DNA from: a virus
IMG/VR virus record: IMGVR_UViG_3300030098_002076
Span: 1-22,920 of that record
Length of the DNA stretch: 22,920 nucleotides
Strand: one strand, 5' to 3'
The position numbers were made by a program, and so were the translations under genes. Of this stretch, positions 1 through 15,102 are shown piece after piece (within the stretch, counting starts at the first letter, position 1; each line of letters begins with the position of its first letter). Below the pieces are notes generated by a model that had not been told where the DNA came from, searched no databases, and saw only the letters and a program-made list of their open reading frames with translations.

Positions 1-267
1 AGGTTTAAAGTCCCATCATACATGTTTGAACGTCAAGGCAAAGACCATAGGGTTAGCAGAGCCAGACAGACAGCATGGTATCTTATGAAGCTGCACGAAG
101 ATAGGATACAGCTAACAGAGATGGGACGTTTTTTTGGTCGGAACTGGTCTACTGTTGCATATGGGATCAGGAAGGTTGAATCTGTCTTGACCAAACACAG
201 ACAAGGCATAGCCTTGACCAATGATGAGCTAAGACAAATCGAAACCATTCATTCATTTGGGCGTTGA
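1..267 (+). CDS. DnaA domain IV-like DNA-binding protein, 5' end outside window
   Basis: The reading frame is open to the left edge, so the gene probably begins upstream; the ATG at 22 is only the first in-window start. The first codons read RFKVPSYMFERQ and lead directly into a DnaA C-terminal-like core. ARQTAWYLMKL resembles the ARQIAMYL helix, and FGRNWSTVAYGIRKVE resembles the DnaA signature (G.RDHSTV.HA..KI) that contacts DnaA boxes. Seen: this motif order over about 60 residues, followed by a short tail. Known: domain IV is the sequence-specific DNA-binding part of bacterial DnaA. Inferred: a phage protein that binds DNA at an origin or operator, fitting the replication genes downstream. 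No AAA+ motif is visible, but upstream sequence is missing, so a full-length DnaA-like protein cannot be excluded. Confidence 0.75.
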   Translation, partial: RFKVPSYMFERQGKDHRVSRARQTAWYLMKLHEDRIQLTEMGRFFGRNWSTVAYGIRKVESVLTKHRQGIALTNDELRQIETIHSFGR

Positions 268-292
268 CAATGACTAAGCAATCGTTTAAATT
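264..292 (+). promoter_or_regulatory. Candidate sigma70-type promoter
   Basis: A perfect TTGACA (264-269) is followed by a 17-bp spacer and TAAATT (287-292), which matches four of six positions of TATAAT. It sits at the end of the DnaA-like gene and could drive the early genes that follow. Transcription would begin near 299, inside the small open frame at 270-389, which weakens that frame's claim to start at 270. Only the hexamers and spacing are seen; activity is inferred. Confidence 0.35.
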
Positions 293-389
293 ACATATGG
301 ATGGCTTAGCCTTCGCCATCTTAGCGTGTTGCTACCCATTAGCGGCATGGATATTTTTGAAGGCCATCACACACACAATAGGACAATGA
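270..389 (+). CDS. Possible 39-residue single-span membrane peptide
   Basis: This short frame starts two bases after the preceding stop and ends one base before the next ATG at 391. It encodes a hydrophobic middle, roughly residues 11-32 (GLAFAILACCYPLAAWIFLK), which could span a membrane once. No Shine-Dalgarno precedes the ATG at 270; an in-frame ATG at 297 also lacks one. A promoter-like sequence overlaps its start. The tight packing and coherent hydrophobicity support a real gene; the missing ribosome site and small size argue against it. Function unknown. Confidence 0.35.
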   Translation: MTKQSFKLHMDGLAFAILACCYPLAAWIFLKAITHTIGQ

Positions 390-390
390 C

Positions 391-729
391 ATGAACCCAT
401 ACATTGAGATGTCACAAGCTTTAATTTTTTGTGACTTCCTTGATTCAATGCGATCACCACACACCACACAACAAAGGAGAAAGAAGACAATGAACTTCTA
501 CAATTATATACAATCTGAAATAACAGATCCAAGAGAGGCGCATAAAATGCTTAACGATTTTGAAGACATGCCATTGGATATGCTTCAAGAGGAGATGGGC
601 CTGGAGGATCTACCAGATGAGGAGTACCGAAAGGGATTGCTTGATGAGCTAAAAGAAATCAGAGATCAATTAGTAGAACAATCAGAGAGAGAATGGCTTT
701 ATAACACACACTACCCGGGAATGAGATGA
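391..729 (+). CDS. Small acidic protein of unknown function
   Basis: Not recognised. From 391 it has 112 residues; from the in-frame ATG at 490 it has 79. Both starts have ribosome sites: AGGA seven bases before 391, and AAGGAG (474-479) ten bases before 490, the latter behind a CA-rich leader identical over 14 bases to the one before the initiator gene. The part after residue 34 is strongly acidic and helical in character (EEMGLEDLPDEEYRKGLLDE), with no Cys motif or membrane span. The first 33 residues overlap a hairpin (411-435). The stop overlaps the next gene's ATG as ATGA, suggesting coupled translation. A small early-gene modulator is a guess. Confidence 0.6.
   Translation: MNPYIEMSQALIFCDFLDSMRSPHTTQQRRKKTMNFYNYIQSEITDPREAHKMLNDFEDMPLDMLQEEMGLEDLPDEEYRKGLLDELKEIRDQLVEQSEREWLYNTHYPGMR
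411..435 (+). other. Inverted repeat GTCACAA/TTGTGAC, possible operator or RNA hairpin
   Basis: GTCACAA at 411-417 pairs perfectly with TTGTGAC at 429-435 around an 11-base AT-rich loop. The dyad lies about 55 bases upstream of the alternative start at 490 and inside the first codons if translation begins at 391. It could be an operator for a small regulator such as the ribbon-helix-helix protein at 1675, or an RNA hairpin affecting start choice. It is short enough to be chance. Confidence 0.3.
465..479 (+). promoter_or_regulatory. CA-rich ribosome-entry leader with AAGGAG
   Basis: CACACAACAAAGGA at 465-478, extended by G at 479 to give AAGGAG, lies ten bases before the ATG at 490. The same 14 bases recur at 1905-1918 before the initiator gene. 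This supports 490 as a real, possibly second, start within the 391-729 gene. CA-rich leaders just ahead of a Shine-Dalgarno are consistent with translation enhancers, which is an inference here. Confidence 0.45.
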
Positions 730-929
730 TGAAAGAAGAAACTAAATCAAGCACACCAACAATCGAAGAAGAACCAAAGAAGCGAACTGTGATAAAGTTT
801 GAATCGGATACTGTAGATTATGTCATTGTTGGCGCAATCTGTAACGCTCTCGTCGATCTTGACTGTAGCAACATCCAGATCACAGCCAGCACGATCTACA
901 ATAACATTAGCATTGTATTCGATGATTAG
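726..929 (+). CDS. Small protein of unknown function
   Basis: A 67-residue protein that I do not recognise. It begins with two adjacent ATGs (726 and 729) whose first overlaps the upstream stop as ATGA, a common translational-coupling junction. The N-terminal third is charged (KEETKSSTPTIEEEPKKRT) and probably disordered. The rest is a compact sequence with alternating hydrophobics and two cysteines, VDYVIVGAICNALVDLDCSN then IQITASTIYNNISIVFDD, suggesting a small alpha/beta fold. It overlaps the RusA gene's start by eight bases. No membrane span or known motif is apparent. Its position among replication and recombination genes is the only functional hint. Confidence 0.6.
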   Translation: MMKEETKSSTPTIEEEPKKRTVIKFESDTVDYVIVGAICNALVDLDCSNIQITASTIYNNISIVFDD

Positions 930-1335
930 ATATTATCGTCTTCAAGGTCAACCTATCGCATTGCCAAGACAGCGATTCACCAGGACAGGCAGAAGCTACA
1001 AACCTGCAGCATATACGAAGCGGAAAGAAGCGGATGTCTTTATCTTGAGATCGTCACATCTTGGCGATGCGATAGATGGACCTATCAAAATGGTCATAGA
1101 GTTTTTTCACAAGAGGCCAAAGCGATTGCTTAGGGCTAAGGACAGTTCAAACCCTATACCAAAGGACAAAAGGCCAGACATAGATAACCTTTCAAAGCAT
1201 GTATTAGATTGTATGCAATCGGCTAACGTCATTAAGGATGATGGTCTTGTATGGCATCTAACATGTATTGATATGTACTGTGCAAAGGATGAAGAACCAC
1301 ACACACTAATCACCATAAGGACAAACAATGGGTAG
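922..1335 (+). CDS. rusA: RusA-family Holliday junction resolvase
   Basis: This 137-residue protein has the RusA layout: an N-terminal strand with PIALPRQRFT (compare the G.P.pK.RPR start of the family), a central strand GPIKMVIEFFHKRPKR, then the catalytic KRPDIDNLSKHVLDCM (residues 83-98), with D86 and D88, and a KDD at 105-107. Known: RusA homodimers resolve Holliday junctions with metal-binding aspartates, and lambdoid phages carry them beside replication genes. The frame is open back to 820, but similarity starts at the ATG at 922, which overlaps the previous stop by eight bases, and the length then equals the usual family size of about 120-140. Likely role: processing recombination or replication intermediates before packaging. 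Confidence 0.88.
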   Translation: MIRYYRLQGQPIALPRQRFTRTGRSYKPAAYTKRKEADVFILRSSHLGDAIDGPIKMVIEFFHKRPKRLLRAKDSSNPIPKDKRPDIDNLSKHVLDCMQSANVIKDDGLVWHLTCIDMYCAKDEEPHTLITIRTNNG

Positions 1336-1663
1336 ATATTCACAAGCATATTTAGATGAGTTTGGATACGATGAAGACTTTCATTGTGACCATGCGTCAC
1401 CATATGACATAGCAACAGATCATCCTAACTGGCATCATGCAATGGGCGTAGCCATCTACGCTTTAAGCATGGTGTTGGATGAACAGAATGGAAAGTATGA
1501 CGCTACATTCTTCGACGTTCACAATGCAGCCATTGAGTTAAGCGTTGAATCCATCATGAATGAATCGCTTATCACAAAGGATAAAGCTTACATAGCGTTG
1601 GGCTATCCAGTAGAAGACATGCCTAAGGACATGTTTGACGATGACTTTCCACTACCATTTTAA
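1328..1663 (+). CDS. Conserved-looking early phage protein of unknown function
   Basis: A 111-residue acidic protein, not recognised. The ATG at 1328 overlaps the rusA stop by eight bases and follows AAGG at 1317-1320, behind a CACACAC tract. It has a His/Asp-rich start (YDEDFHCDHASPYDIATDH, then HPNWHHAMG) and two helical stretches (AMGVAIYALSMVLDEQNGKY and FDVHNAAIELSVESIMNES), ending in acidic DMPKDMFDDDFPLPF. The clustered histidines and acidic residues could bind metal, but no established motif is complete. No membrane span. Its operon position between a resolvase and a regulator suggests an accessory early function. Confidence 0.6.
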   Translation: MGRYSQAYLDEFGYDEDFHCDHASPYDIATDHPNWHHAMGVAIYALSMVLDEQNGKYDATFFDVHNAAIELSVESIMNESLITKDKAYIALGYPVEDMPKDMFDDDFPLPF

Positions 1664-1674
1664 GGAGCATAACA

Positions 1675-1860
1675 ATGGACATTATTAAGAAAGAGAAAGG
1701 CGGAACGTATGAAGGCAAGCCAAGAGCGCAGAAGACTTCAAGCATATCCACCAGAATAACAACAGACCAGGCACAAGCAATCGAGCAAGCTTGTCAAGAC
1801 AACCAATGCACAAAGTCAACCCTTCTATATTCCATCATAGAAGACTGGCGAACCAAATAA
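1675..1860 (+). CDS. Ribbon-helix-helix (CopG/Arc-type) regulator
   Basis: This 61-residue protein has a basic N-terminal arm (IIKKEKGGTYEGKPRAQK), a short strand (SISTRIT, about 23-29), helix one (TTDQAQAIEQACQDN) and a second segment CTKSTLLYSIIEDWRTK. That is the strand-helix-turn-helix order of ribbon-helix-helix DNA-binding proteins, which act as dimers and insert a two-stranded ribbon into the major groove. AAGGAG at 1662-1667 lies seven bases before the ATG and overlaps the upstream stop, so the start is firm. Seen: fold-like pattern and size. Inferred: a repressor of early genes, perhaps acting on nearby dyads. The family is very divergent, so the DNA target is unknown. Confidence 0.65.
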   Translation: MDIIKKEKGGTYEGKPRAQKTSSISTRITTDQAQAIEQACQDNQCTKSTLLYSIIEDWRTK

Positions 1861-1862
1861 AA

Positions 1863-1901
1863 AAGGGGAGGACATGGCTGCTCGGCTAATGTCCTCCCCT
1901 T
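1863..1901 (+). terminator. Strong 13-bp RNA hairpin after the regulator gene
   Basis: AAGGGGAGGACAT (1863-1875) pairs perfectly with ATGTCCTCCCCTT (1889-1901) around a 13-base loop. The stem starts three bases after the stop codon of the ribbon-helix-helix gene and ends 29 bases before the next gene's ATG. It lacks a proper U-run, so it may be a weak terminator, an attenuator or an RNA-processing or stability element rather than a full stop. An ATG inside the stem (1874) is in frame with the next gene but is an unlikely start. Confidence 0.6.
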
Positions 1902-1904
1902 ACA

Positions 1905-1919
1905 CACACAACAAAGGAA
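1905..1919 (+). promoter_or_regulatory. CA-rich leader and AAAGGAA ribosome site that sets the initiator start
   Basis: CACACAACAAAGGA at 1905-1918, immediately after the 1863-1901 hairpin, leads to the ATG at 1931. It repeats the leader at 465-478 exactly over 14 bases. The spacing from GGAA to ATG is about 11 bases, a little long. It still favours 1931 over the in-frame ATG at 1874, which would place the ribosome on a 13-bp stem. Confidence 0.5.
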
Positions 1920-1930
1920 CGTGTTGCATC

Positions 1931-2797
1931 ATGAACGTATCACACAAACAGAGGACTATCAAATTGAACGGATTATTTACACCAATACCGCAGGGTCTAA
2001 GATATACATTTGTAGATGTTGACAGACCAGCATCTGACATCGAATGTTTTTACTGGACCATAACGCAGCTAAGACAAGGCAAGACACTAAGCATTAGGGT
2101 CATTGCAAGAGCATGTAAAATAAGCAGACATAAAGCCAGAAAGGTTCTTGAAGAAAGCCAAAAATTAATCGGCCAGGAGTCGGCCACTAAGCAGCCAGCA
2201 ATCAGCCAGCAATCGGCCAGGAGCAAGGGACCAGTACGTCTTTCAATAGTGGAAACCAGCCAGCAATCGGCCAGCAATCGGCCAGCGAGCAGCCAACAGA
2301 CAGACAACATAATAGTAAAGAGTAAGAGTAAGAGTAAAGATATAATTAATTATACTAAAAAACCATTGGGAAAAAGATGCAAGCCAGAACTGGTTACCAA
2401 GCAAGTCGGTGACGTTTGGAATCATTGGTTCTCATTCAATGCAAAGACAAGGACAGTCAACGGTGAGTGCGCCAGGGTTATCAGGACAGCATTGAAAAAT
2501 AACTACACAGTAGATGAGTTGAACCTGATTGTATCCTGGGCGATGGAGAGTGAAGACTACAAATGGCAGCGAGATAATGGCTTTCATTTTTGTAGAAACT
2601 TTCTGAACCAAGAGAAGATAGATGGCAACAATGAAAAGGCCCAGGATTGGAGTGAATCCGTAAACGTCCCAAATCAGCCAGAAAATAAGTCTTTCATTGA
2701 CAAGGCATATGATGCCCTAAGTGATTGGCGATATGGCCCAAATGGGTATCTCTTGCCCAAGTATGGTGGAGAGTATAGACCAGCAGGAGATTACTAA
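1931..2797 (+). CDS. Putative phage replication initiator / replisome organiser (lambda O-like role)
   Basis: A 288-residue protein in three parts. Residues 35-80 form a winged-helix-like segment (YWTITQLRQGKTLSIRVIAR, then CKISRHKARKVLEES). Residues 81-148 are a low-complexity Q/S/K linker with repeated QQSA and KSKSKSK. Residues 150-240 resemble the C-terminal module of phage initiators of the replisome-organiser/DnaD-like type (VGDVWNHWFSFNAKTR, YTVDELNLIVSWAMES, NGFHFCRNFLNQEKI). Known: such proteins bind iterons at the phage origin and recruit the helicase loader. The linker DNA holds an 11-bp periodic array, as in lambda O, whose gene contains the origin. The start at 1931 is chosen over 1874 because 1874 lies in a hairpin. 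The stop overlaps the next ATG (TAATG). The family is inferred from motif shape; the role is supported by context. Confidence 0.65.
   Translation: MNVSHKQRTIKLNGLFTPIPQGLRYTFVDVDRPASDIECFYWTITQLRQGKTLSIRVIARACKISRHKARKVLEESQKLIGQESATKQPAISQQSARSKGPVRLSIVETSQQSASNRPASSQQTDNIIVKSKSKSKDIINYTKKPLGKRCKPELVTKQVGDVWNHWFSFNAKTRTVNGECARVIRTALKNNYTVDELNLIVSWAMESEDYKWQRDNGFHFCRNFLNQEKIDGNNEKAQDWSESVNVPNQPENKSFIDKAYDALSDWRYGPNGYLLPKYGGEYRPAGDY
2172..2302 (+). repeat. 11-bp periodic direct-repeat array (iteron-like)
   Basis: Nine units begin with GCCA at exact 11-bp steps: 2172, 2183, 2194, 2205, 2216, then after a 32-bp gap 2259, 2270, 2281, 2292. The consensus is GCCAGCAATCG; the units at 2205, 2259 and 2270 are perfect and 2194 has one change, while the outer units keep mainly GCCA. 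Eleven is not a multiple of three, so each unit is read in a different frame and the repeat is a DNA-level feature. The spacing is about one helical turn, so bound proteins would line up on one face. The array lies in the linker of the putative initiator gene. Confidence 0.8.
2172..2362. other. Candidate phage replication origin (iterons plus AT-rich unwinding region)
   Basis: The iteron-like array is followed at 2306-2362 by a tract with 47 A/T out of 57 bases. That tract holds tandem AGTAAG hexamers (2321-2326, 2327-2332, then AGTAAA) and a 14-bp perfect palindrome, TATAATTAATTATA (2341-2354). Known: oriLambda has iterons inside the O gene followed by an AT-rich region that melts when O binds. 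The same order inside a gene placed like O, next to a loader candidate, makes this the best origin candidate in the window. Origin function is inferred. Confidence 0.6.
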
Positions 2798-3414
2798 TGG
2801 CTCATCCAATGACAATAGAAGAAAGTCTCCGAGAGTTTGTCACCAATTGGGGACGTGGACAAGAGCATGTAAACAAGCTTCTATCGATATGGCTTTATGA
2901 GTTTGCACAAACACCAGACAAGGTTTTATCTGCAGCTATTCGCAGACTCATGAGAGAATCTACTGCTTCATTCATTCCACCATTGGGAGTCGTTAGGGAT
3001 TATGTCTTAGCTGAAAACAATGGAAGCGTAGGTATAAAGTCATACAACAAATGCAATGACTGCAATCAGCATGGCATGAGATGGATTGCGATACACTACA
3101 ATGAAGCGCCTAAATCATTTGGTCGTTATCATGGCGAACCATTCTGTTATCACTTCACTTGCGCTTGCTCTTGTGATTTGGGAAAGGCTAAGAAAGAAAC
3201 GACGATTGAAACCATTGTAAACAATCTTGATAATGCAATGGCAAGACATAACCGTATCAGATATTATTATATCAATGGAGATGGTAAGCCATTAACAGCA
3301 CAAGAGTCTACACTGGAGGAGACATGGCAGCAGAACCTGGAGCAGATACGATCCCGAGGGGTCAACCCATATCGCAAGGCAATCTCTCGACTATTGCAGG
3401 AGCCCACAATGTAG
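2797..3414 (+). CDS. Putative helicase loader with zinc-binding motif (lambda P-like position)
   Basis: A 205-residue protein. Residues 10-72 are helical and end in STASFIPPLGVVRDYV, the pattern of phage helicase-loader N-termini (a helical bundle followed by F.P..G.....V). Then comes a Cys2 knuckle KCNDCNQHG (C86, C89) and a partner CACSCDLGK (C122, C124, C126), a likely zinc ribbon as in many loader-type or primosomal phage proteins. The C-terminal half is helical and basic. The start is fixed by AGGAG (2785-2789) seven bases before the ATG, which overlaps the initiator's stop. Known: loaders of this kind bring the host DnaB-type helicase to the initiator-origin complex. Assignment rests on zinc motif, size and operon position; an alternative is a generic zinc-finger replication accessory protein. 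Confidence 0.55.
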   Translation: MAHPMTIEESLREFVTNWGRGQEHVNKLLSIWLYEFAQTPDKVLSAAIRRLMRESTASFIPPLGVVRDYVLAENNGSVGIKSYNKCNDCNQHGMRWIAIHYNEAPKSFGRYHGEPFCYHFTCACSCDLGKAKKETTIETIVNNLDNAMARHNRIRYYYINGDGKPLTAQESTLEETWQQNLEQIRSRGVNPYRKAISRLLQEPTM

Positions 3415-3635
3415 ATGGAATTATTTATTTAATGCTTGTACCATTCGGTACTAACTCTCCTCATATGGTGTTCTTTCAAGAGACACATCCAATATGGGAA
3501 GACATAACTTATCAACTTGGAATAGATGATCCTGGCCTCATCATTCATTCCCCTAACTTACTAATGGGCCATGAGATAAACATATATACATACTTAAAGG
3601 AACAGTATTATGACCATGCAACCTACAATGAATAA
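3324..3635 (+). CDS. Small protein overlapping the loader gene; unknown function
   Basis: A 103-residue frame that overlaps the loader's last 91 bases in another frame. The ATG at 3324 has a very good ribosome site, GGAGGAG at 3315-3321, though the spacing is short. A second in-frame ATG at 3432, outside most of the overlap, lacks a good site and would give 67 residues. The unique part is a compact alpha/beta-like sequence (VDGIIYLMLVPFG, MVFFQETHPIWEDITYQLGI, EINIYTYLKEQYYDH), with no membrane span or known motif. It overlaps the next gene by 26 bases. The unique 3' portion is probably coding; whether the overlapping 5' part is translated is uncertain. Confidence 0.55.
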   Translation: MAAEPGADTIPRGQPISQGNLSTIAGAHNVDGIIYLMLVPFGTNSPHMVFFQETHPIWEDITYQLGIDDPGLIIHSPNLLMGHEINIYTYLKEQYYDHATYNE

Positions 3636-4227
3636 GACCGATCGCATCGTTAAGATCGCTGAAGTAAACGGACATATCTATGTCGATGGTGGTTTTCATC
3701 CACATTTTCAAGACGATATTAAAGCAAACCTGGATGCACAATTCCACAAAGAAAAGAAGATATGGTATGTCAAAGCAGACAGAGCTGCAGAGCTGGACGC
3801 ATTGATTGAAACATACTTTCCAAGTGCTACCATCGAAGACCATAGAAAGAAAGAACCAATGACCAAACAAAAAGATGAAGAAGAAAACCTAATCCAAATG
3901 ATGAAAAGCCAAGGCTTCATCGTAAACCTAAAGGGAAAAAACTATGTATTGTTTTCTGGTCTACTTCACTTGGCGCATTTGAATGGGCTTGAATCAATAG
4001 AGACTGATAGCGTAGTCCTAAACACAGAGAAGCAAACAGCAGTATTTATAGCTACTGTTAAGGGACCAAGGGGAACATACAACGGACATGGAGATGCAAG
4101 CCCACAAAATGTTTCTAAGATGATGGTGCCATCCTATATCCGAATGGCTGAAACCAGAGCAGTAGCCAGAGCATTGCGTTTCTATTTAGGTATGGGTATG
4201 ACCTGCCGAGAAGAGTTACCAGGATAA
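3610..4227 (+). CDS. Putative DNA-recombination protein, possible single-strand annealing type
   Basis: A 205-residue protein with two regions. Residues 10-70 read VKIAEVNGHIYVDGGFHPHF, then DAQFHKEKKIWYVKAD and LDALIETYFP, resembling the small HARP-like beta-beta-alpha module (predicted position, then K.W.V, then a helix) of some DNA annealing or remodelling enzymes. Residues 108-203 contain YVLFSGLLHLAHLNGLESIE and HGDASPQNVSKMMVPSYIRM followed by AETRAVARALR and GMTCREEL, the latter typical of a phage and haloarchaeal family that I associate with Erf/Rad52-like annealing proteins. AAAGGAA at 3596-3602 sits seven bases before the ATG. Role inferred: recombination near rusA. Exact family uncertain. 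Confidence 0.5.
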   Translation: MTMQPTMNKTDRIVKIAEVNGHIYVDGGFHPHFQDDIKANLDAQFHKEKKIWYVKADRAAELDALIETYFPSATIEDHRKKEPMTKQKDEEENLIQMMKSQGFIVNLKGKNYVLFSGLLHLAHLNGLESIETDSVVLNTEKQTAVFIATVKGPRGTYNGHGDASPQNVSKMMVPSYIRMAETRAVARALRFYLGMGMTCREELPG

Positions 4228-4748
4228 TGCGTTTCGCTTATGCCGATCCACCATACATAGGGCAAGCTAAAAAACACTACAAAAATGAAGCATTGTGTGC
4301 AGAAGTTAACCATGAGATATTGATTAACTATTTAGATTGTTCCTATGATGGCTGGGCATTATCATGCTCTTCATCGTCATTGCCTTATCTTCTTAGCCTA
4401 TGTCCGAAAGGCATAAGGGTAGCATCATGGGTTAAACCGTTTTGTGCTTTTAAACCTAATGTAAATCCTGGTTACACATGGGAGCCTGTTATTTTTAAAG
4501 GATCAGTAAAGCGTGAACGATATGAAGACACGATAAAAGATCATTTGATTTGCAACATAACCTTGAGAAAGGGTTTAGCTGGTGCAAAGCCTGTAGCTTT
4601 TTGCAAATGGATTATTGATTTACTAAATGTAAAAGAAAATGATACGCTTGACGATATATTCCCAGGCACTGGTATCATGAAAGCAGTTAGATACAATAAG
4701 TTTATGAACCTGGAGAGACAGGTTTCTTTATTTAATACTTCTTCTTAG
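4227..4748 (+). CDS. Short DPPY-type DNA methyltransferase (probable N6-adenine)
   Basis: A 173-residue enzyme with DPPY at residues 7-10 (catalytic motif IV) near the N-terminus and DDIFPGTGIMKAV at 142-154 (motif I, S-adenosylmethionine binding) near the C-terminus. This is the order of beta-class amino-methyltransferases. WEPVIFKG at 85-92 and KPVAFCKWIIDLL at 121-133 are further class landmarks. DPPY is usually N6-adenine. The protein is short and has no apparent target-recognition insert beyond about residues 12-80. The ATG overlaps the upstream stop (TAATG) after AGGA. Known: orphan phage methyltransferases protect DNA from host restriction or influence gene control. No restriction endonuclease is nearby. 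Last gene of the early block. Confidence 0.8.
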   Translation: MRFAYADPPYIGQAKKHYKNEALCAEVNHEILINYLDCSYDGWALSCSSSSLPYLLSLCPKGIRVASWVKPFCAFKPNVNPGYTWEPVIFKGSVKRERYEDTIKDHLICNITLRKGLAGAKPVAFCKWIIDLLNVKENDTLDDIFPGTGIMKAVRYNKFMNLERQVSLFNTSS

Positions 4749-4830
4749 GCTTCTTATATGGCTTAGCAATAGGTTTCTTATTGCTGGGCTTTTTTGGTTT
4801 CTTAGCGACTATCTTCTTAGGCTTCTTCAT
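4732..4830 (-). CDS. Lysine/proline-rich 32-residue basic peptide
   Basis: A short frame on the minus strand encodes 32 residues, 16 of them lysine and 6 proline, built from KKPKK-type repeats (MKKPKKIVAKKPKKPSNKK, then PIAKPYKKPKKKY). The DNA contains a 15-base direct repeat, CTTCTTAGGCTTCTT, at 4741-4755 and 4813-4827. The ATG (4828-4830) follows a weak AGGT. It is the last frame of the late block, 58 bases after the terminase-like gene, and overlaps the methyltransferase 3' end by 17 bp on the opposite strand. The early terminator lies inside it. Small basic proteins in phages can bind DNA or nucleic-acid-rich cores; that role is a guess. The composition is unlikely by chance, but no homolog was checked. 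Confidence 0.5.
   Translation of the reverse strand: MKKPKKIVAKKPKKPSNKKPIAKPYKKPKKKY
4761..4795 (+). terminator. Intrinsic terminator of the early operon
   Basis: An 11-bp stem (4761-4771 with 4779-4789; core AGCAATA/TATTGCT, then two G-U wobbles and a closing GC/GC) surrounds a seven-base loop and is followed by six T residues (4790-4795). It starts 12 bases after the methyltransferase stop. Read from the minus strand, the wobbles become A-C mismatches and there is no U-run, so it acts mainly on plus-strand transcripts. Confidence 0.8.
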
Positions 4831-8691: not shown

Positions 8692-11600
8692 TTATTTATC
8701 CTTTCGTTTTCCAGTATTATATTGGTTCAATTTTTTTAATTCTTGGTTCATTAAAAAATCTAATTTTTTATTTTGTTTTCTTTTATCTTCACTAACTTTA
8801 AAATATCTTTGTGTACCACTATAAGACTCTAATCCTGTGCCTAAAGAATAAATACCAAAATCACTTCCTGGCGTTAATGGTAAGCCTAATTCTAATCCAA
8901 ACACATCACGACCAATCTCTATATCTTCTGCCATTAATGCCCCGGCTGAGCTGTATATAGGTTGTTTAGCACCCGCTAACATTAATAACCATTCAGTTAT
9001 AGCCCAATTTTTAGCAACATTTTTATTTAACCATCTTCTTTGTGTCGCGTATGGAAAGTCTGATGGTTCACCTGTTTGACGTCTACCAAAATAAGTAGGT
9101 TTATCAAAATCTCTTTTGTCAAATTCAATATCTTCCATAGGAAAATACTGCTCAAACCAATCTAAATTATTAGTGTTTCTTAAAAAGTATAATAGTTTAT
9201 CTGGTACTCTTTGACCTTTCCATTGATCATCTTTTTGCGCTATATCAATAAGCAATTCAATTGATGGACGATAGCCCGGCTCAGTCATTATTTTATTCAT
9301 CACAGAAGCTACATTCTTTTTTTTACTATCACTCATAGTAAAATTAATTGCTTCAGCTAAAGTATTAACTACTTCTAATGCAGGTATTCTCGGACCAGAA
9401 GCTAAGTATTCTGAATCATCTTTTTTAATTGTTTGTAATGCTTTCCATATAGGATGGAGTCTCATTTTAGTTTCATCTGATGAATGATACCAAGCATCTG
9501 CATCTTGCAATCTTTGATTTTGCAAACGCACATATGACATAAGCATATTAGGCTTATCATCTTTTAAGATTCTATATGCCCCATTAATAGTCTGTTTAAT
9601 GTTTTCAATTCTAAATGTAGTAAACAACATAAATCGACTAAGCATATTTTTAGCATTTTGATTTAATGCACTGTAATCAAATATAGATCGTCTTGCTAAA
9701 GCTGCTGCTTGTTCTGGTGTTTTACCTTCCATTAAGCCTTTAATAAATACTTGATTTCTAATATGCTGATCAACAGCAATGTTTATACGATGATAAATAT
9801 TTTTGTATCTTGGATCTACATATTTAGAAAATATATTCTTAGCTTTTCCTTTAGGCATACCGGATACATATAATCCTAAATCTCTAAACACTTCATCAGC
9901 AACAGTGTCGCTTAATACTACTTGTGATTGACTTAAACCAAGATTGTGCTTGCCCATTAAATACTTTAATTCTGCATTAGTATATGAACGACCACGCGCA
10001 TTTGTAAATACGATTGCATCATCTGGTGTATGTTTTAACTTTTTAAGGGCAGCTCCTGGTGATGCAATTGCTGTCATTGCACCTCTATTACCTAAAGTAA
10101 CTGCGGTTATTGTAGGCATACCAACAATGTTATTAACTATATTAACAAGCCCAGGCATCCATGCACCACCAAGCATACTTGCAGTACCTAAACGCCTTGC
10201 GTCATCTAATATATTTAAAACAGCTCTGGTATAATTAGTCTTGTCTGCTGGCGTTAGCTTTTCTAAATGTGTATCTAACTTTCCATACGACAACATATCC
10301 TCTAAGCGATGTAAGGTTTTAGAAAACTCAGGACCATATATTAATGCTACATTTGCTCCTTTTAAATTTTTTGCGTTCATTCTGTTAATGCGAAGTGATT
10401 TTCTTAATAGATTATCAGCATCTACTGCGCCAGATCCTTTTAATGTAGAACGCAATTGTTTTAAACTTTGGCCAAACGCATCTGAACCCAATGATGTATT
10501 GACATTATTAAAACCTAAAAATCTTCTATTAATTTCTTTAAACAAAGTATCTTTTTGTTTTTTTGTTAGGTCTGCATTTTTTAACAGTGAATTATATGTA
10601 TTTTCTAATGCAACAACAGAGTCACCAGCAATCATATTAGCTCTGTGCATTAAAGATTTAATGTTTAAATCCATTGTGCCTTGTCTAATCATTGATCCCA
10701 TCATCCATTTAATCATTTCTAAACGATCATTTGGACTTAATCGTGCAATGCTTTGAATGTGCTTTTGTGCCATTTGATCAGCAAATTTATCAATAAAAGC
10801 CGCATCAGCACCTGGTATGGTTTTAGCTATTTCAGCATATTCTTTGTATAAATCTTTTCCATATTTTAAATTCATTTCACCTATATTAGGGTCTTGAATC
10901 ATATTTAATACTTGTCTTGGATTTTCATCTACAAATCTTTGCAATCTAATTTGCGCTGCTCTTCCTTGTCTTTGCTGTAAAGCCCAACTTAATAATGCTG
11001 TACCAATAGGAGCATCTTTATTTAACCTTGCTTTCTGTCTTGTTTTAGCTGCTATTAATCTTGGTTTTACTACAGCTTTACCTGCTAACTCAGGTTCAGC
11101 ACTTTCTAATCTTCTTATTATTTCTCTAAATGTATCAACATTAGGATCAAAAACATTAGACGCTCTGGCTCGCAACATTTGTTGTTCTCCAACACCTAAC
11201 TTACCTTCTCTATAAGGTTTCTTTATTACAGCAGATAAATGTTTTCTATTTGTAATTAAATTGCTTACAGTTTCACCACCACCATAATACTTTTTAATTA
11301 AGTTTTCCCATACATCTAATTTTGTAAGATAAGTATCATAATCTAAAATAATATTTCTAAGAAACTCTTCTGGTACATCACCATCTGGATAGTTCTTTCT
11401 TACAATTTTTCGTATTTGATTTGCTATTGTTGTATGTCTATTCTTATCTCTGGTAGTTAAAATATAATCTAAATATGCTTTGTAAGATCCACCAAAATTA
11501 CGATTAACAAAATCATCTGTATTTTTAGCTACGTCATTGGCTTGAGTTTTCCAAGTGTCATTAAAAACTTTATTAGCAGCTTCTCTTGGATCTAAGTTTT

Positions 11601-14600
11601 TTTTATTTTCATTTACTTCATCAACAAACTTTTTAAATACACTTTGAGATTCTTCTGCAATATCATTCAATGCTGTATGCAATCTTGTTAAATCTTGTCT
11701 GCTTGGCAAGTCTTTTGTTTTATTTATTTTTACAAACTGTTTTAATGCTTGACCAAGCCCTGGCGTCCATCCAAGTGGTTTATCTGAACCAGTAAATAAT
11801 GTGCTTGGAAATAAACTATCTTGTATAACTTTATCGGTTTTAGCTTTTTTAGCTTGATCACCAAACAAGTTTAAAGCTTTACCGTCCATATGTTTCTTAG
11901 CTAAATGATCTTCAATTGTACCTTTAACAAAAAGGAACTCATCCATAGTTAAGGCTTTATTTGATTCCATTTTGGATAATATTTCTTGCCATGCTTTAGA
12001 TTGGGCAATAACATTTGGCCCTCCTATTTCCTGTGTTAAAGCAGCAAACAGTTTATCTTTATCTTTAATTTTTAAAACAACTACACGCTCTCCGTTTTCT
12101 TTTATGATTTTTGGAGTAATGTTATCGTCGATTAATTCTTTCCAATCTTTTTTTGTAGCAGCTATTCTCTTTTTGTCTGAAGCAAAACTTCTTAATACCG
12201 CTGTATCGTTGCCTATAATTACAAAATCTATAGGGGATAAGTTTGAAAACAATTCATCGGCTTCTTTAGCTAAAGCACCCTTAGAGGCTAATAGGTTCGT
12301 TTTTAAATCAGTAGGTATAAAGTCATACCCATGGCCTCTAATAATGGCTGCTAACGTATCTATTGTGCGTTTATTGGCTGGTACATTAGCAAACTCTTCT
12401 GCCATTTTAGCTAACTCTTTTTCCGAATATTGACCTTTAGCTATTTTGTCTGCAAAGTTTATTAAGAATGTTTCTTTTATTAAACCTTCATTAAGAGCTG
12501 TAATCTCTCTTACTAAATCAGTATTTTCTGTTGTAACATTTGGCTCAAGTCTACCTGTTTTATTATTCTTTTTATAAATAGTAGTCTTTAAAGTATTTCT
12601 GTTTTCTAGTATTTTGCCCGCATCTTGAGCGGTTAAAATCATATTGTTTAAACTTGTATCGCCTTTATTAGCTTGTTTTTGTGCTGTAATTTTTAAATTT
12701 AAAATATCGTCTTTAGCTATATCTTGTATTTTTTCTAATCTTTTTAATGGATCTTGTACATGTTCTTTTGTTTCATCAAATAATTTTTTAATGTAATTAG
12801 AGTGTTCTTCCATATCCATTAATTCATCTAATGTATCTAAAGAACCAGGATTAGATTTAATAAAACCATTTACTACAAACGGTGACGATACATTATCAGC
12901 GGTTATTTCACCCATCCTTTTGTACAGAGTGTTTTGCAAAGCATTCTTTTTAAACATTGTTTCAAAGTCTGCACCTTTAGCTGTTGAGCTATACAGTTCT
13001 TTAACTGCTTTTGTACCTGCCCCATTAGCTATTTTATCAGCATGTCTTTTGACTTTGTTTATGTTCCATGCTTCAGCCGGATTAGTAACTATTCTTACTG
13101 CTTTTGCTGCTGTTGGTGCATCAGCATTTTTTAATACAAAAGACAATCCTCTACCAGCTTTTCCAACATTTCTCGCTAAAGTAAAAAGCCCAGTAGCTGG
13201 TACAACAAGCTCTGTTGCATACCCTTGCATTTTAGCTCTTGACCTTTGTATTGGAAATGCATCTGGATCAATTCTTAATTCTGCTGCTTCTCCTACACCT
13301 TGCAAGGTTCCTACATTAATCATCCATTGATCAAAAAACCCACGTTCTTTATCTATTTTTTGATCACCCTTATATATTTTACCTGGTAATGCTACATTAA
13401 AAGCGTGTATGGCGCCTGGTGCTATATTTAATGGGCCTCTTAATAATGCTGCTGTTGTAGACTCAGTCCATTCTGGGCCTTGATCATCAATTAATAATGA
13501 TTGCAAAAAACCTTTATCTTTTTTTTCTGATGCTTTTTCTAAAGATTTATCAGTTATATTTCCTTCTTCATCTAAAGCATATCTATTTTTTATAGTTTTA
13601 TATATATTATATTCTTTAGGATATTGATCTTTAAACTTTGAAAGGTCACCATCAAGTCTACTGTATTGTTTAAAGATTCCAAGCGATTTCATTTCTCCAT
13701 CTATTTTATCTTGTAAATCTTTATATAATTTATCTTGATCTGCTTTTTCTTGCTCATCTGCATCTAATGCTTTTGCTATGCTAACTTTTGCTAAAGACGC
13801 ATCTCTTTCTGCTGCTGTTTGTATTACTTGTGGCTTAAAAGCATTTGTTAACATTTCTAATGTTGTAGCTTTTCTTCTAACTCCATCTTTTAAAATGATG
13901 TTATTTTCCCAATCAACAATATCAGATCTAATCTTTTGTGAGCGATAATTAGGATCACCAGAAGCTATAGTAAAATTAATTGTTTCTGCTACTCTTAAAG
14001 CTTCAGCTCTGGATTTTTCTATACGATCTAATTTAACTTTTTGAAACTCTTCAGGACTTAACTTTGCATCATTAACAGCATTTTTTGCCATCATATCTTG
14101 CAATAATAATCTTTGAGTTACGCTAAATGTTTTTTGTCTTATTTTGGCAAGATCATTTTGTTTAATTGTAACATCATTTAGTTTTTGTATTTCTCTTATT
14201 TGTTCTTTTGTAAAATATTTAGATCGTTCAAAAAGTAAATGATCAATATCATTTAATACTATTGCTGCTTCTTTAGAGTTAGCCCCAACATTTCCATCAA
14301 TGTATCCTTTTGCTAAAGCCGAAACGGCTATTTTATTTTCTATTTCAGATGTTGGTTTACCTTCATTAAGTTTTTTTATAATTCTTTGTTGTTCATCTGC
14401 ATTTGCTTTACCTGCAGCTATTTTTGTATCTGCAACAACATCAGTATTTAAACCTATTTTTTCTTGCATATATCGAGGCAAATAAAAACGTGCTACCGCT
14501 ATAGCTTGTTTACCCAATCCTCTTGCACCAGAACGATCAACATTTTTTTGTAAATATCTTTCTTTTTGAAACTCTTTTAAAGCCAAATCTTCTACACGTT

Positions 14601-15102
14601 TTTGTCTTTTTTCTTCTGCTTCAGCTTCAGCTCTTTGTTTTCTAATGCGCGTTAGATATTTATCGCCTTCTTTTAAATATCCTTTCGCATCAGGTATTTG
14701 ATTATATTGACCATCATCTGTTGCTTCTAAATACTCTAACTCTAAAGGCAACGCTGGCATATCTTGCATGTAGCCTCGGCCCTGCATACCAACCCATGAT
14801 TCAGAACGATAAGGAGTATATGGATCTTCATCTATTTCTTGAAGTTCTTTGTATCTTTCAAGAGTTATACCAGCATTTTCTTTTAACCATTTTCTTCTTG
14901 CTTTATTTAATACATCTTCTTGTGATGCTTTATAATCTTGTGCAAGTTTTAATTGATAACCAACGCCTCTACCTGTTGCAGCTTCCATTCCAAGCTTTTT
15001 ATATCTTTCTTTATCTGCAAAACTTAGCTTATTATATTCTTCGCTACCAAACGGTATAGAAAATATATACTTATCAGAATACTGTCCTTCAGGATATGCC
15101 AT
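8692..15102 (-). CDS. Giant internal virion / DNA-ejection protein (T7 gp16 position)
   Basis: A 2136-residue protein, about 28% of the window, low GC (one sampled line, 12661-12720, is 25% GC). It follows two smaller internal-protein-like genes and precedes the fibre, the place of gp16 in T7. Long charged, helical regions are interrupted by hydrophobic stretches near residues 627-647 (TELVVPATGLFTLARNVG), 1640-1665 (LGGAWMPGLVNIVNNIVG) and 2030-2048 (WAITEWLLMLAGAKQ), plausible membrane-interacting segments for a channel through the host envelope. A segment at about 1800-1830 (RSIFDYSALNQNAKNMLSRF, then FTTFRIEN) resembles a recurring phage large-protein motif (FDY..L...EK...R..PF..). No lytic transglycosylase, protease or polymerase motif was identified, so no enzymatic role is assigned. 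Known: gp16-like proteins are ejected first. A giant vRNA-polymerase-like or polyvalent protein is not excluded. Confidence 0.7.
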   Translation of the reverse strand: MAYPEGQYSDKYIFSIPFGSEEYNKLSFADKERYKKLGMEAATGRGVGYQLKLAQDYKASQEDVLNKARRKWLKENAGITLERYKELQEIDEDPYTPYRSESWVGMQGRGYMQDMPALPLELEYLEATDDGQYNQIPDAKGYLKEGDKYLTRIRKQRAEAEAEEKRQKRVEDLALKEFQKERYLQKNVDRSGARGLGKQAIAVARFYLPRYMQEKIGLNTDVVADTKIAAGKANADEQQRIIKKLNEGKPTSEIENKIAVSALAKGYIDGNVGANSKEAAIVLNDIDHLLFERSKYFTKEQIREIQKLNDVTIKQNDLAKIRQKTFSVTQRLLLQDMMAKNAVNDAKLSPEEFQKVKLDRIEKSRAEALRVAETINFTIASGDPNYRSQKIRSDIVDWENNIILKDGVRRKATTLEMLTNAFKPQVIQTAAERDASLAKVSIAKALDADEQEKADQDKLYKDLQDKIDGEMKSLGIFKQYSRLDGDLSKFKDQYPKEYNIYKTIKNRYALDEEGNITDKSLEKASEKKDKGFLQSLLIDDQGPEWTESTTAALLRGPLNIAPGAIHAFNVALPGKIYKGDQKIDKERGFFDQWMINVGTLQGVGEAAELRIDPDAFPIQRSRAKMQGYATELVVPATGLFTLARNVGKAGRGLSFVLKNADAPTAAKAVRIVTNPAEAWNINKVKRHADKIANGAGTKAVKELYSSTAKGADFETMFKKNALQNTLYKRMGEITADNVSSPFVVNGFIKSNPGSLDTLDELMDMEEHSNYIKKLFDETKEHVQDPLKRLEKIQDIAKDDILNLKITAQKQANKGDTSLNNMILTAQDAGKILENRNTLKTTIYKKNNKTGRLEPNVTTENTDLVREITALNEGLIKETFLINFADKIAKGQYSEKELAKMAEEFANVPANKRTIDTLAAIIRGHGYDFIPTDLKTNLLASKGALAKEADELFSNLSPIDFVIIGNDTAVLRSFASDKKRIAATKKDWKELIDDNITPKIIKENGERVVVLKIKDKDKLFAALTQEIGGPNVIAQSKAWQEILSKMESNKALTMDEFLFVKGTIEDHLAKKHMDGKALNLFGDQAKKAKTDKVIQDSLFPSTLFTGSDKPLGWTPGLGQALKQFVKINKTKDLPSRQDLTRLHTALNDIAEESQSVFKKFVDEVNENKKNLDPREAANKVFNDTWKTQANDVAKNTDDFVNRNFGGSYKAYLDYILTTRDKNRHTTIANQIRKIVRKNYPDGDVPEEFLRNIILDYDTYLTKLDVWENLIKKYYGGGETVSNLITNRKHLSAVIKKPYREGKLGVGEQQMLRARASNVFDPNVDTFREIIRRLESAEPELAGKAVVKPRLIAAKTRQKARLNKDAPIGTALLSWALQQRQGRAAQIRLQRFVDENPRQVLNMIQDPNIGEMNLKYGKDLYKEYAEIAKTIPGADAAFIDKFADQMAQKHIQSIARLSPNDRLEMIKWMMGSMIRQGTMDLNIKSLMHRANMIAGDSVVALENTYNSLLKNADLTKKQKDTLFKEINRRFLGFNNVNTSLGSDAFGQSLKQLRSTLKGSGAVDADNLLRKSLRINRMNAKNLKGANVALIYGPEFSKTLHRLEDMLSYGKLDTHLEKLTPADKTNYTRAVLNILDDARRLGTASMLGGAWMPGLVNIVNNIVGMPTITAVTLGNRGAMTAIASPGAALKKLKHTPDDAIVFTNARGRSYTNAELKYLMGKHNLGLSQSQVVLSDTVADEVFRDLGLYVSGMPKGKAKNIFSKYVDPRYKNIYHRINIAVDQHIRNQVFIKGLMEGKTPEQAAALARRSIFDYSALNQNAKNMLSRFMLFTTFRIENIKQTINGAYRILKDDKPNMLMSYVRLQNQRLQDADAWYHSSDETKMRLHPIWKALQTIKKDDSEYLASGPRIPALEVVNTLAEAINFTMSDSKKKNVASVMNKIMTEPGYRPSIELLIDIAQKDDQWKGQRVPDKLLYFLRNTNNLDWFEQYFPMEDIEFDKRDFDKPTYFGRRQTGEPSDFPYATQRRWLNKNVAKNWAITEWLLMLAGAKQPIYSSAGALMAEDIEIGRDVFGLELGLPLTPGSDFGIYSLGTGLESYSGTQRYFKVSEDKRKQNKKLDFLMNQELKKLNQYNTGKRKDK

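Follow-up and report, generated by a model that had tools for sequence, protein, structure and literature searches.

The window, by which we mean the whole stretch of 22,920 nucleotides of viral DNA analysed here, carries a putative replication-initiator gene with two blocks of 11-bp repeats and an AT-rich tract inside its coding sequence, and a second gene directly downstream. The features discussed below are the following:

1931-2797, plus strand: initiator gene, open reading frame of 288 amino acids, with a ribosome-binding-site-like AAAGGAA at 1913-1919
2172-2226, plus strand: iteron block 1, five 11-bp units (GCCAGGAGTCG, GCCACTAAGCA, GCCAGCAATCA, GCCAGCAATCG, GCCAGGAGCAA)
2227-2258, plus strand: spacer between the blocks, 32 bp, encoding SKGPVRLSIVETS
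2259-2302, plus strand: iteron block 2, four 11-bp units (GCCAGCAATCG, GCCAGCAATCG, GCCAGCGAGCA and the degenerate GCCAACAGACA)
2303-2362, plus strand: AT-rich tract, proposed DNA unwinding element, 48 A/T out of 60
2797-3414, plus strand: gene for a 205-aa protein, its ATG overlapping the initiator stop codon; contains a Cys-rich motif

An upstream ATG at 1874 would lengthen the initiator gene, but in the relatives of this phage indels in the interval 1874-1931 shift it out of frame. The 288-aa product comprises an N-terminal part with a helix-turn-helix-like stretch (residues about 40 to 80, recognised by inspection only), a variable linker that bears the array, and a C-terminal domain that, by sequence, weakly resembles a phage replication-initiation family. 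The match is to phrog_16167, 'replication initiation protein', and is weak (E-value 4e-4 for the whole protein, 0.0036 for its C-terminal part). The C-terminal domain also aligns with those of the 'replication initiation protein' of Vibrio phage VvAW1 and its homologue in Vibrio phage 24E30.2 (22 to 24% overall, with YTV, HW and DNG shared), at BLAST E-values of 2 to 4 that are not significant alone; the linkers of these two proteins, however, carry repeats at lags 12 and 21 and no comparable 11-bp array. Phage_rep_O does not match the window's initiator, a PDB sequence search with the protein found nothing, and AlphaFold models were poor (pLDDT of 34 for the whole protein and 43 for the N-terminal part). 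It is a guess that the invariant spacer peptide SKGPVRLSIVETS forms a wing strand of the DNA-binding domain, which would place block 1 inside the wing loop. As for the 205-aa gene, it occupies the helicase-loader position, the place of P in lambda, and is conserved in two other contigs (L006 and L007); its best PHROG match reached only an E-value of 0.067, and Pfam gave no match for its product.

The 11-bp array and its AT-rich tract

The first-pass annotation placed nine GCCA units at 2172, 2183, 2194, 2205 and 2216, and at 2259, 2270, 2281 and 2292, and all nine coordinates are correct. Three units (2205, 2259 and 2270) are the perfect GCCAGCAATCG, which is absent from the rest of the window, and Tandem Repeats Finder detects two stretches of period 11, 2167-2220 and 2257-2295. 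From the last unit of block 1 to the first of block 2, the offset is 43 bp start to start, or about four helical turns.

R1 parC likewise consists of two clusters of about 11-bp direct repeats, and the array recalls it, so that a plasmid-type centromere read by a ParR-type protein was considered. However, the array lies inside a coding gene and not in a promoter, and no ParA-type ATPase was found in the window or its relatives, by a search whose control was positive in 14 of 14 genomes. We regard a centromere as very improbable.

The periodicity might also belong to the protein: the linker would be an S/Q/A-rich stretch of low complexity, periodic by chance or through a recent tandem duplication, with no function as DNA. 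It is indeed hydrophilic, and an exchange of units between blocks may have occurred in one relative (L002). Nevertheless, the protein does not explain the period, as had been argued from the fact that 11 is not a codon multiple. Self-identity at lag 11 is 0.565 over 2165-2300, against 0.350 +/- 0.043 after synonymous re-encoding of the same protein with random codons and 0.275 +/- 0.041 after shuffling the codon order, and none of 20,000 sequences of either kind reached the observed value. For the best 33-base stretch of the gene the figure is 0.82 at lag 11, and lags 10 and 12 give 0.48 and 0.61; one of 300 gene-specific codon shuffles reaches the lag-11 value.

Relatives of the initiator bear on the same question. 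The lineage, as far as it was recovered, has three members: the window and two IMG/VR contigs, L001 (91% identical) and L002 (87%). A tblastn search of 50,697 phage records and 72,556 plasmids added none. All nine units are at the same positions in both contigs. It had been proposed that the repeat spacing should outlast the protein sequence, and this is what we observe: both relatives preserve the spacing of 11 bp and the CCA core exactly while linker residues change. In L002, for instance, ATKQPAIS of the linker protein becomes ASERPVNV, and several units are re-lettered in place; two of these changes (GCCACTAAGCA to GCCAGTGAACG, GCCAACAGACA to GCCAGGAGTCA) bring the sequence nearer the unit. 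Among the three phages, variable codons in the iteron blocks are non-synonymous in 13 cases and synonymous in 3, against 29 and 70, respectively, in the gene outside the blocks, spacer and AT tract (Fisher p = 1e-4). Five unit positions (C2, C3, A4, 8 and 10) are invariant over nine units and three phages (permutation within codon positions, p = 3e-4), and each of them runs through all three codon positions. Since linker residues vary more than synonymous sites while these unit positions are fixed, selection acts on the DNA. Amino acids thus change where the DNA core stays, and we give a linker periodic for the protein's sake, or by accident, almost no credence. Synonymous variation is scarce in the spacer and AT tract too, affecting 2 of 32 codons compared with 70 of 222 (p = 0.003), and the bases that vary among the three phages number 2 of 32 in the spacer and 3 of 60 in the tract.

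Directly after block 2 comes the AT-rich tract. Its composition had been given as 47 A/T out of 57 (2306-2362), a count that is right and that is unmatched by any other 57-mer in 1-4800; by nearest-neighbour energy, 2306-2361 are the least stable 56 bp of the same region. The hexamers and the palindrome described there are present as well, the former as 3.3 copies of AAGAGT (2318-2337) and the latter as the 14-bp TATAATTAATTATA (2341-2354). A hexamer is a codon multiple (KSKSKSK here), so that the protein could account for it, unlike the 11-mer. Direct repeats inside a replication-initiator gene and an adjoining AT-rich tract of low stability, the two marks of an iteron origin embedded in an initiator gene, are therefore both found, the identity of the initiator being drawn from weak PHROG matches, position and layout.

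Iterons frequently serve for control too, as in iteron plasmids. The array could accordingly be an operator or copy-control site by which the initiator regulates its own gene or handcuffs copies, with replication starting elsewhere. It lies, however, 240 to 370 bp into the coding region, beside the least stable DNA of the region, and the early region contains no second array and no AT tract comparable to 2303-2362. A site devoted to control is in our opinion highly unlikely.

Arrays in other phage initiator genes

The first-pass annotation likened the layout to that of oriLambda, which holds in outline. In lambda, too, the initiator gene, O, contains iterons with an AT-rich tract after them; the adjoining gene there is the helicase loader, for which the window has a candidate by position. 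The details of the array, however, are unlike lambda and match HK620, Sf6 and phage L. That the repeat itself differs from lambda's was rightly noted: lambda has four 18-bp iterons with a spacing of 20 to 24 bp, and no lag-11 signal. In the closest match, HK620, Sf6 and phage L / ST64T (O / gene 43 / gene 18), two 11-bp blocks lie mid-gene, about four turns apart, with an AT-rich stretch after them. These phages have 3+3 units and a 44-bp offset where the window has 5+4 and 43 bp; their units are TACCAGCAAAT or TGTCCAACGGA, that of the window is GCCAGCAATCG, and their O-type proteins have no detectable homology to the 288-aa protein (hhalign probability 0.1%, no phmmer match). The offset is exactly 44 bp, with 3+3 units, in HK620, HK630, ST64T, phage L, Sf6 and CobraSix, and the two-block layout of HK620 recurs in Pantoea PA-1, Yersinia 30.14 and Cronobacter ENT47670. 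The array stretches are annotated as putative origins in the HK620, Sf6 and L records, and the six 11-bp TGTCCAACGGA repeats of phage L gene 18 are the likely origin of that phage (PMC8022706).

A scan of IMG/VR at the DNA level only, with two and a half motif units, gave 15 hits. Six are in initiator linkers, two of these being the known relatives, most others resemble unrelated or GC-rich repeats, and some lie at contig ends. The arrays found in replication-gene linkers of other phages (L074, L080, L082 with four units GCCAG[TC]GAACA, and L069) are in genes whose proteins match DnaD-like and O-like initiator families, and a second DNA-only scan gave four arrays, all four in DnaD/O-like genes. 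Separately from these scans, a Vibrio hit (L019) proved false and sits in a potassium transporter. Perfect 11-bp arrays were also seen at the ends of the available stretches of two viral contigs (GCCAGCCATCA in L073:1-60, GCCAGCCAGCG in L077:1-100), which are possibly assembly breaks at repeats. An ORF near another contig end (L076:6821-7237) has a long 11-bp array whose units start with GCCAG and are mostly free thereafter.

For a survey of initiator genes, 80 IMG/VR homologues, collected by N-terminal peptide patterns, were combined with about 20 cultured phages, and near-duplicates were removed. Strong lag-11 arrays occur in 31 of 49 non-redundant initiator genes of at least 215 codons, the window and its two relatives included, a proportion that is not an unbiased frequency because the sample was seeded by array-bearing genes. 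None of 58 neighbouring ORFs reached the lag-11 threshold, and none of 21 shorter initiator genes had a strong array. Among the strong cases are Staphylococcus HSA84 (ACAACAAATCA), Lactobacillus Lc-Nu and phiAT3, Vibrio 1.085.O and 1.172.O, and Pseudoalteromonas HS2; Listeria P7 has a lag-11 value of 0.82, yet 16 of 300 codon-shuffled versions match it. Like the window, the DnaD-like and O-like genes of Staphylococcus, Lactobacillus, Listeria, Vibrio and environmental phages have linker arrays of 11 bp; theirs have a common core, to which the unit of the window is only a moderate fit. They usually have a single block of 4 to 7 units, and their protein family differs by sequence. Profile comparisons with three alignments and an iterative HMM showed no homology between the 288-aa protein and the O/DnaD-like sets. 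Iterons of 11 bp have been published for phage L.

Eleven is not a universal period. The peak is at lag 20 in lambda and at 15 in Lactococcus phage TP901-1, whose rep gene (orf13) also contains repeats, reportedly essential for replication, but with a period of 15 bp and no lag-11 signal. The initiator gene of one contig (L103, near locus position 1501) has a 22-bp, two-turn repeat of alternating units (0.91 at lag 22), and Anoxybacillus phage A403 (L176) likewise peaks at lag 22. In many linkers (L090, L156 and L174 among them), the 11-bp array is followed by an AT-rich tract of period 9, of AATGTAAAG / GATAAGAAT type and encoding KN-rich protein; it is possible that this is a conserved unwinding element with a repeat of its own.

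When 27 units are aligned by rotation, a core of about ARCNARTGNMC emerges, with 8.7 bits of information, against 5.4 +/- 0.26 bits for letter-shuffled units required to encode, in every frame, a hydrophilic linker free of stops. Part of the core may still reflect the constraint of coding in three frames and not a common reader. In a leave-one-out fit to this core, GCCAGCAATCG gave p = 0.047 and GCCAGTGAACG of L002 p = 0.025, and two other unit variants were not significant. If the repeats of 27 arrays were perfect, they would create 26 in-frame stops. In 21 of these a one-base change removes the stop, and departures from the repeat have four times the density within would-be stop codons that they have elsewhere. 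An open reading frame has to break such stops in any case; the telling point is that usually one base is changed. In L188 and L190, a T-to-C change returns in every third unit. The excess of deviations at these bases is a further argument against the linker being periodic for the protein only, and what repeats in the surveyed arrays is the DNA, which the reading frame accommodates, and not the protein. In a broader scenario, initiators of different protein families and bacterial phyla would read a common one-turn iteron of 11 bp (about ARCNARTGNMC) in the linker, linkers such as EQQVNNKRTTSEQQVNT would be by-products of this DNA code, and the code would have persisted, or evolved again, in the unlike initiator of the window. 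We entertain this scenario tentatively, and lean slightly against it. In the literature searched, mostly outside subscription journals, we found no general account of 11-bp arrays.

Putative origin function and neighbouring features

We consider it very probable that the array is a theta-type origin, placed where the phage's initiator gene codes for the linker, and that the product of this gene binds the iterons, with opening at the AT tract. This reading is founded on the array, which the protein does not explain, on its conservation at the level of DNA, on the adjoining tract of low stability, on the weak but recurrent resemblance of the C-terminal domain to phage replication-initiation proteins, and on the same layout in phage genes that are annotated as initiators with putative origins. 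The proposal of an origin candidate at this place is thereby supported, with a putative replication start here and putative binding of the repeats by the encoded protein; binding, melting, helicase loading and the origin function of the array are what we infer.

The process might run as follows. Copies of the 288-aa protein would bind the nine iterons, one per helical turn, so that the bound proteins would be on one face of the DNA, and the 43-bp offset would keep the two blocks roughly in helical phase. One-turn iterons that stay in phase across both blocks suggest an initiator filament along one DNA face, unlike the situation with the palindromic iterons of lambda. Wrapping or oligomerisation would then open the adjoining tract (2303-2362), and the C-terminal part of the initiator, perhaps together with the 205-aa protein, would recruit the host DnaB helicase and replisome. 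Searches of the window, L001 and L002, records that may be fragments, revealed neither a helicase of the DnaB type nor a DNA polymerase of family A, so that the host replisome is probably recruited. GC skew cannot place the origin, because the skew flips where gene direction flips. An Rfam search of the window gave nothing, and scans for sigma-70 promoters and terminators remained at chance level overall.

Alternatively, the array may be an origin or control site read by another protein, chiefly the phage DnaA domain IV-like protein encoded at 22-267 of the window. DnaA-type proteins are origin binders; this one matches Bac_DnaA_C (1.3e-10), and its gene recurs in L001, L002 and another two contigs. 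Its DnaA-type helix-turn-helix has an altered recognition signature, NWSTV in place of the DHTTV by which DnaA reads its boxes. Its site is thus probably not a standard DnaA box, and, standard boxes being at chance level in the window, it must be something else. However, lambda O and SPP1 gp38 read repeats inside their own genes, the same kind of array sits in a winged-helix initiator gene in other phages, and in the short annotated stretches inspected around those arrays no gene for a DnaA-like protein came to notice. We find a reader other than the initiator unlikely. The DnaA-like protein is complete, with 163 amino acids, in L063:7768-8259, and has the same length and a coiled-coil-like N-terminus in L001; it had no match in cultured phages.

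If the array is an origin bound by its own initiator, an odd and fast-evolving protein linker would be accounted for as DNA read in three frames, and phage replication origins could be sought by a simple rule needing only sequence: an 11-bp periodicity in the linker-coding part of an initiator gene would mark the place. It would also be predicted that most genes annotated 'DnaD-like helicase loader' or 'O-like' hold their own origin and encode origin-binding proteins.

Two other features of the window deserve mention. Just before the initiator start, at 1863-1901, lies a 13-bp stem that on the minus strand is followed by a U6 tail (-24.7 kcal/mol, z -4.8), and in which L001 and L002 show a compensatory pair change (GGGGAGG/CCTCCCC to GGGTAGG/CCTACCC); it would be a conserved leftward terminator beside the putative origin, perhaps comparable to lambda oop. 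Among the late genes, the minus strand of 8692-15102 encodes a protein of 2136 amino acids that has no PHROG match and is a candidate for a large virion or ejected protein.
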